Shown here: positions 6,966 to 11,135 of the stretch, piece after piece
How positions within the stretch are numbered: position 1 is the stretch's first letter
How the letters are laid out: every line of letters starts with the position of its first letter
Assembly: GCA_023512255.1 (NCBI GenBank)
Contig: JAILZY010000063.1
Coordinates: 1 to 20,306, forward strand
Reading direction: 5' to 3'
From: a bacterium
GTDB lineage: Bacteria; SZUA-182; DTGQ01
Length of the DNA: 20,306 nt
The notes under the pieces: generated by a model
What the model was told of the DNA's origin: nothing
What the model saw: the letters and a program-made list of their open reading frames with translations, nothing else
The model's database searches: none
Translations under genes and position numbers: made by a program

Positions 6966-8444
6966 TTAGTCATACCAGTAGGTTAGGTCGCGGTAGAATA
7001 GGTAAAGCATTTTCCCGGTCGCGGAGTAGGAGCAGATGAATGCTCGGTTATCGTCATCTAAGTATAAGTTGTTATCCAAGCCAATATCTCCTTCCGAAGC
7101 TACTACCTCCCGAGCCCAAAAGTCAGCTTTAAGATATGCAAGTTTAAGATTTTTCAGCGGATAGCCGCTTTTTGCCTTAATTTCATAATAGGCGATCACC
7201 GGGCAGCCTTCAGAGTCAAAAGCTAGACTGCAATAATCTCCGCACTCTGCGCTGTCATCTACCATCATGAGCTCCCAGGAAGAAAACTGCCCGTCAGCAG
7301 CAGAGGCATATCGCAAGCAATGCTTAATACCCCCTGTCGTATAGCTCTTTACATAGTAGGCCACCCCTACCCTTTTGCTCCGCTTATCCCTGGCGCAGCT
7401 TATCCAGCCTACCTCACATCCCTGCTCGATCCATTCCCTCTGCTATGTCCCATCAGATCGTTTTCTAGCCATCCGAAGCCCCTGGCTCTGGTCCGAAAAC
7501 CGTGCGAAGTGGAAAATCACCGGCTGCTCGCTCTCATCCAGGATAATAGCGCAATGGGCTCCAAAGGTATGAGGCCCGCTTCCCTCATCCTTCTCCACCA
7601 TCTGCGCACTTACTTTTTCCTCAAGGTTAGAGCGATGTTTCTTAAGGTAATAAAGATCAGCCAGATTGCTTTTATCCTGGCAGTTTTCAGAGGCCTGCTG
7701 ATAGCCCAGGTGAATATACCCTCGCGAATCAGCGATGATTGATACTTCAGCTCCGGCAAGCCTAACCAGAGAGCCGATCTCACCCTCCTCACCTTCAGCC
7801 CCAATGCAAGATGACCAAACCCCACCTGCCCTAAGACCGAGCATGGCCTGAGACTCCTGCTCTCCCTCATCCTCACTGCATCCCCTAAGCAGCCTCCCAC
7901 CTCGCCAGGCAGCCACCGGACAGCTATCGCTGCAGGTCAAAGTAAGGGCTGGAAGCAGATAATTTTTAACCCTAGCCACAGGCTCAAAAACCGCAGGCTC
8001 GAGCAGCTCCTGATCAGACGGCTGCTGATGAGCGCTCTGCCAATCCCAGACCATATAGCCGATCTGATAGTCTCCATCGGCCAAAGCACGCAGACAAAGA
8101 ATGTGTAGCCTGCCGCAGCAACCTTCCAAAATAGCCCTAATTTTTGGCCTCTGCCTCCCCTCCTCTGTTTCGATCCGGGCCAGAGGAAGCTTTCCCCAGT
8201 AATCTGTAGGCACCTTTATCGCTATCTCAGCGGGGATCGCTATCTCACCGGGCACCTCCGCAGGGGGAGCTTCGGAGCCAGGGCTTTCGCAATCATGATC
8301 ATGACTGTGCTCGCTACCGCTGCTCCCTCCCCCAAGGCATCCGCATACACATACCATGCTGAAAATACAACAGATGCCGAAAATCAAGGCTAAAGGCGAT
8401 ATAGAGTGCGATGGCCCTCCTTTTTTAATCTCGGCGCTCAGCAT
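6966..8444 (-). CDS. Predicted lipoprotein with internal beta-type repeats, interrupted by an in-frame TAG
   Basis: The start is taken at ATG 8444 (GGAGA ten bases upstream, promoter just before). The frame extends 17 codons further up, but that part overlaps the promoter. The signal peptide ends V-C-G-C36, a lipobox, so an envelope lipoprotein is likely. The first ORF stops at TAG 7445-7443 (codon 334). The same frame then runs open for 158 more codons to TAA 6968-6966, and clearly continues the protein. The C-terminal half has repeated units: 'LRMARKRSDGT-TAG-QREW', 'LRYASAADGQFSSWEL', 'LKLAYLKADFWAREVV', each followed by a CG/VG/IG turn and often '.IAYYE'-like strands, as in beta-propeller-like extracellular proteins. 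By that comparison TAG replaces a Trp or similar residue. An 18-bp in-frame tandem duplication lies at 8218-8253 (EIAI twice). Function unknown. It could be a recent pseudogene or a readthrough gene. Confidence 0.6.
7443..7445 (-). other. In-frame TAG codon inside the lipoprotein gene
   Basis: On the minus strand the codons read GGG ACA TAG CAG AGG GAA TGG. No frameshift is needed: both halves are in the same frame and 33 codons downstream of TAG are open before the next Met. One G-to-A change from TGG (Trp) would explain it. Confidence 0.85.
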
Positions 8445-8483
8445 GGCCAAAAAATCTCCAATTTCAATTAAAACAAATAATTT

Positions 8484-8513
8484 ATTATTAAACATATTTT
8501 ATAGAATAGTCAA
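8484..8513 (-). promoter_or_regulatory. Predicted sigma-70 promoter of the interrupted lipoprotein gene
   Basis: On the minus strand, TTGACT (8513-8508) and AATAAT (8489-8484) are 18 bp apart, each matching 5 of 6. Transcription would begin near 8476, downstream of the first possible ATG. This supports the ATG at 8444, which has a GGAGA site. Confidence 0.45.
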
Positions 8514-10445: not shown

Positions 10446-11135
10446 ATGATCCCAAAATCCCTTTTTTTGCCAAATCAAGAGAATCTTCAGATTCTCTATG
10501 AAGACAACCACCTGATAGCCGTATACAAACCAGGCGGTGTTCTGGTCTAGGGAGATATTTCGGGAGATATCTCCCTGATGGATATGATTAAACAGTATAT
10601 CAAAGATACCTACAAAAAGCCAGCCGGGGTATTTCTCGGCCTGGTTCACCGACTTGATCGCCCGGTGTCTGGGGTAGTGGTCATGGCCAAAACATCCAAG
10701 GGTGCCAGAAGGCTATCAGAGCAGTTTCGCTCCCGCAGTGTTACTAAAATCTATTGGGCTCAAGTGTATGGGAAGATGGACCAGAAAGAGGGAATCTTGA
10801 CTACTTATCTTACCCGAGGAGCCAAAAGGACGGTGGTGACTAAAGAGGCCGAGCCTGGGGCTCAGCAGGCAGTTTTGTCTTACCGGATACTGCGGGAAGG
10901 AGGGGGGGGAAAATCACTCCTTGAGATCACCCTACACACGGGTCGACGGCATCAGATCCGCGCTCAGCTTGGCGCTGCAGGACATCCGATTGTCGGCGAT
11001 GTGAAATATGGCGCTCCAAGGCCCCTGCCCGATAATACCATCCGGCTTTTGGCAAAATCCCTAACCTTCAAGCATCCAACCAGGGATGAGATTATAACCG
11101 TTGAATGCCCTGAGCCTGACTGGAGTGAGTTTTGA
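10446..11135 (+). CDS. RluA-family pseudouridine synthase interrupted by an in-frame TAG
   Basis: Converts uridine to pseudouridine in rRNA or tRNA. Reading from ATG 10446, codons 1-34 encode an RluA-type N-terminus (LQILYEDNHLIAVYKPGGVLV). Codon 35 is TAG (10548-10550). The same frame then gives GDISGDISLMDMIKQYI...FLGLVHRLDRPVSG, with catalytic Asp71 in HRLDR, later GRRHQIRAQLGAAGHPIVGD, and ends at TGA 11135. In the family the motif commonly reads '...KP.GLLVQGD', so TAG stands where Gln (CAG) is expected and no residues are missing. Without readthrough, only a 34-residue peptide or an N-truncated form from ATG 10572 or 10578 could be made, lacking the first core strands. It is divergent from rsmG-spoU, the two ATGs being 5 bp apart; each ribosome site would lie in the other gene, and both are weak. 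Family secure; state (nonsense mutant or readthrough) undecided. Confidence 0.75.
10548..10550 (+). other. In-frame TAG codon inside the RluA-family gene
   Basis: The codons read GTT CTG GTC TAG GGA GAT ATT. From my knowledge of RluA sequences, Gln precedes GD at this site, so a single C-to-T change from CAG would explain it. The frame is otherwise open for 229 codons. A 12-bp near-perfect direct repeat (GGGAGATATTTC/GGGAGATATCTC, 10550-10573) follows, but the length still fits the family. Confidence 0.85.

Follow-up and report, generated by a model that had tools for sequence, protein, structure and literature searches.

An RluA-type pseudouridine synthase gene in the draft genome of an uncultured bacterium (assembly GCA_023512255.1, contig JAILZY010000063.1) is interrupted by a single TAG where its relatives encode glutamine, which raises the question of whether this codon is translated, abolishes the enzyme, or is an error in the contig. 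The window, meaning the whole stretch of DNA that was analysed, is 20,306 nucleotides long. The evidence points to either an ordinary nonsense allele or a consensus error. The best explanation, with a probability of roughly 55%, is a recent single-base nonsense change (CAG to TAG) in an ordinary RluA-type gene, from which the enzyme is not made.

The interrupted RluA-type gene

The features of the locus are as follows:

10446-11135 (+): RluA-family pseudouridine synthase gene, interrupted, 229 codons on readthrough (TIGR00005, PF00849 and orthologues)
10548-10550 (+): in-frame TAG in a conserved glutamine column, occupied by CAG in the nearest relatives that cover it
10578-11135 (+): frame after the stop, 185 amino acids from the first downstream ATG, lacking the first 37 of the 152 positions of PF00849
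8704-10473 (-): RsmG-SpoU fusion gene, the divergent neighbour (domain profile matches)

The frame is discontinuous under the standard code, the TAG at codon 35 being its only internal stop, and it terminates with TGA (11133-11135). When the stop is read through, the translation scores 118.2 bits against PF00849 (PseudoU_synth_2, gathering threshold 26.8), which together with the orthologues bears out the RluA-type identity proposed in the preliminary description. Its score against TIGR00005 is 163.5 bits, under the cut-off of 192.7, with the match beginning at model position 67 and the N-terminal part of the model absent, and the gene is therefore classified by its Pfam domain and its orthologues. 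Judged by these comparisons, the interrupted gene is a member of the family by descent. The catalytic motif (HRLDRPVSG) is present in frame on the 3' side of the TAG, as had been noted. In its domain, HRLDR motif, length and glutamine column the gene resembles a short stand-alone subfamily of RluA-type proteins (about 230 amino acids, V-Q-GD..GD.SL), and its orthologues within the genus and the family are intact; it differs by one in-frame TAG.

Conservation and selection

The expectation that the TAG falls in a family glutamine column was checked by alignment with relatives. Glutamine occupies the column in 84 of the 108 homologs that have it, and in 83 of the 84 that are at least 44% identical, the remaining one having methionine; more distant RluD-like proteins mostly have histidine. 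Of the relatives that include this column, the nearest four (G001, G002, G013 and G033) all use CAG. The orthologue in G001, of the same genus, is intact and 79% identical (G001:C78), and so is that in G002, of the same family (66% identical). Both genomes also keep the adjacency of the gene to its divergent neighbour, whose 589 codons fuse RsmG (16S rRNA methyltransferase) and SpoU-type methylase domains. This fusion is itself retained in G001 (544 amino acids, 73% identical), and the G002 match spans both domains. The RluA orthologue in a third genome, G003 (L040:1-181), carries, at the edge of a contig, an N-terminal portion of unrelated sequence and is perhaps an assembly chimera.

The preliminary description held that no residues had been lost or gained and that the remainder of the frame showed no decay. 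The frame is indeed clean, and its only indel relative to the G001 orthologue is one residue, in a loop near residue 153. In pairwise comparison with G001, dN/dS is 0.17 before the stop and 0.14 after it, close to the value for the RsmG-SpoU neighbour (0.17), which indicates selection on both halves until recently. Purifying selection has acted on the gene since its split from this relative, and the gene was under ordinary constraint until recently. With G002 as outgroup, 19 amino-acid changes are assigned to the lineage of the interrupted gene and 10 to that of G001, an excess that lies entirely after the stop but is mild and not significant (sign test, estimated p about 0.14). The genome has just one further RluA-type gene. 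It is RluD-like, with 328 codons and 39-44% identity, and is no close paralogue that would make the interrupted copy redundant, which disposes of one circumstance that had been named as a possible refutation.

These observations are consistent with a nonsense codon created by one transition at codon 35, recent enough that the rest of the frame would have had no time to decay. RF1 would normally stop translation at the TAG, leaving a product of 34 residues and no full-length enzyme from this allele. On such a reading the base is real, and the product is inferred to be lost or cut to a probably inactive fragment. Two findings count against it: the 19 to 10 excess is only mild and so gives no separate indication that function was lost, and in-frame stops are concentrated in this contig in a way that would be odd for random decay of the genome.

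Another interrupted gene in the contig

6966-8495 (-): second gene, broken by a single clean in-frame TAG at 7443-7445, where the two G001 homologs carry TGG

This gene of 509 codons encodes a repeat-containing, lipoprotein-like protein, and its G001 homologs (61% and 45% identical) both have tryptophan at the TAG column. The two TAGs are 3.1 kb apart and each corresponds to a C to T change on the plus strand. Among gene matches counted as comparable (at least 40% identity and at least 60% coverage), clean in-frame stops were found in 2 of 4 in the window and in 0 of 153 elsewhere, in a comparison that covered about 1.05 Mb of the 3.83 Mb genome; the enrichment is overstated, since the window was chosen for its first TAG. 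Several other candidate stops were set aside. That at L185 appears 5' of the gene's own start and was judged to be an artefact of calling ORFs mechanically. A TAG at L175:17544 was rejected as further recoding because the gene is also frameshifted and thus decayed; it lies in a PAS-domain histidine kinase gene of contig C32 (L175:16545-18114, minus strand). The tblastn list contains many more stops; these are clustered or at match edges and were judged as a group to be antisense frames or match ends.

The pair of TAGs in the contig fits two independent C:G-to-T:A nonsense changes (CAG to TAG and TGG to TAG) or base errors, and a contig-specific consensus problem could lie behind their clustering. 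It is accordingly a substantial possibility, held at somewhat less than even odds, that the TAG in the RluA-type gene is an erroneous or minority-strain base in the contig consensus, the population having CAG and a normal enzyme. The genome is a draft of 172 contigs (96.6% complete, 2.2% contamination), the two clean TAGs share one contig and the same direction of change, and in published assemblies an internal stop frequently reflects an assembly error at low coverage, many internal-stop pseudogenes being of this kind (PMC11017572). Against such an error, the neighbouring FtsH, RsmG-SpoU, CheW and MCP genes are without frameshift or other anomaly, and in composition the contig does not stand out from the genome.

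The downstream start codons and the hairpin

10549-10577 (+): coding hairpin over the GDISGDISL repeat, not associated with TAG; foldable in G001 and G002, which have CAG

If the TAG is real, a shorter protein that retains function might be made by reinitiation or from an internal start. The in-frame ATGs downstream of the TAG are at 10578 and 10584, and not at 10572 and 10578 as had been described. ATG 10578 is 5' of the HRLDR motif and the remainder of the domain, and a GGGAG sequence is located about 11 bases upstream of this ATG. This GGGAG and the region 5' of the ATG are, however, inside a predicted hairpin, and the 37 PF00849 positions that the shorter protein would lack include the YED..IAVxKP strand kept by intact orthologues, in agreement with the earlier view that an N-truncated product would lose part of the core. 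A functional product from this start is improbable.

In the RNA, the stretch running from the TAG as far as the downstream ATG is predicted to fold into a stable hairpin (-17.9 kcal/mol over 36 nt). Synonymous shuffles equally stable numbered 12 of 1000 for this genome, 138 of 1000 for G001 and 109 of 1000 for G002. In this genome, then, 988 of 1000 shuffles are less stable than the hairpin, which lies directly on and 3' of the TAG. This is a point in favour of readthrough, but the hairpin was rejected as a readthrough signal because the CAG-bearing relatives G001 and G002 have a similar fold.

Genome-wide tests of TAG translation

The preliminary description left two choices, a very recent change or a translated codon, of which only the first is supported. 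Reading of the TAG as an amino acid, by a change of code, pyrrolysine or programmed readthrough, is favoured by the hairpin and by a frame that is clean 5' and 3' of the codon, but is not supported by the genome and is very unlikely. The RF1 gene (prfA) is an uninterrupted frame of 355 codons; an apparent TAG inside it was dismissed, as the match starts one codon 5' of the ATG. Among 133 scored genes, with ends compared to those of G001, TAG is a common terminator (42, with 51 TAA and 40 TGA). The genome thus has neither the rarity or absence of TAG as a terminator nor the loss or alteration of RF1 that mark amber-recoded genomes, and a code change was rejected on both grounds. No in-frame stops were found in 53 ABC-ATPase matches or in 85 response-regulator matches.

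None of the 41 tRNA genes has a CUA anticodon, all RF00005 matches having been typed, although an odd tRNA-Pyl may escape RF00005 outside the sampled stretches; tRNA-Sec is present among the matches. There are two clearly different tRNA-Gln(TTG) genes (L171:13315-13386 and L245:12548-12618) and one tRNA-Gln(CTG). The extra tRNA-Gln(TTG) copy was considered as a suppressor and rejected, the anticodon being an ordinary TTG in both. The best match to PylS in the genome reaches 27.1 bits, where the cut-off is 178.15, and weak matches occur in 13 of 14 controls as well. A search of the genome for MttB found none, and a pyrrolysine system, of which neither a PylS above the cut-off nor a CUA tRNA among the 41 typed was detected, was rejected on the PylS score and the absence of MttB. 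The second TAG replaces tryptophan rather than glutamine, and the two sites therefore do not fit reassignment to one residue. Partial readthrough, in which the hairpin would favour insertion of a near-cognate glutamine and the gene would give both a 34-residue peptide and full enzyme, is just as hard to credit.

Significance of the interrupted gene

With one stop, an intact remainder and an intact relative in the same genus, the RluA-type gene resembles recent internal-stop pseudogenes of bacteria, true or spurious (PMC11017572). Like amber-decoding systems, such as pyrrolysine (PylS/PylT) and the amber-recoded phages, it shows a TAG within the frame of a gene that is otherwise good, but it differs from them in that the machinery was not found, TAG is a widespread terminator, and different residues are replaced at the two sites.

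The locus is a caution: a conserved glutamine replaced by a clean in-frame TAG can mimic recoding, but RF1, tRNAs, terminator use and replaced residues, taken genome-wide, favour simple nonsense or an erroneous base. If both TAGs of the contig are real, two genes would have been lost very recently in one lineage.
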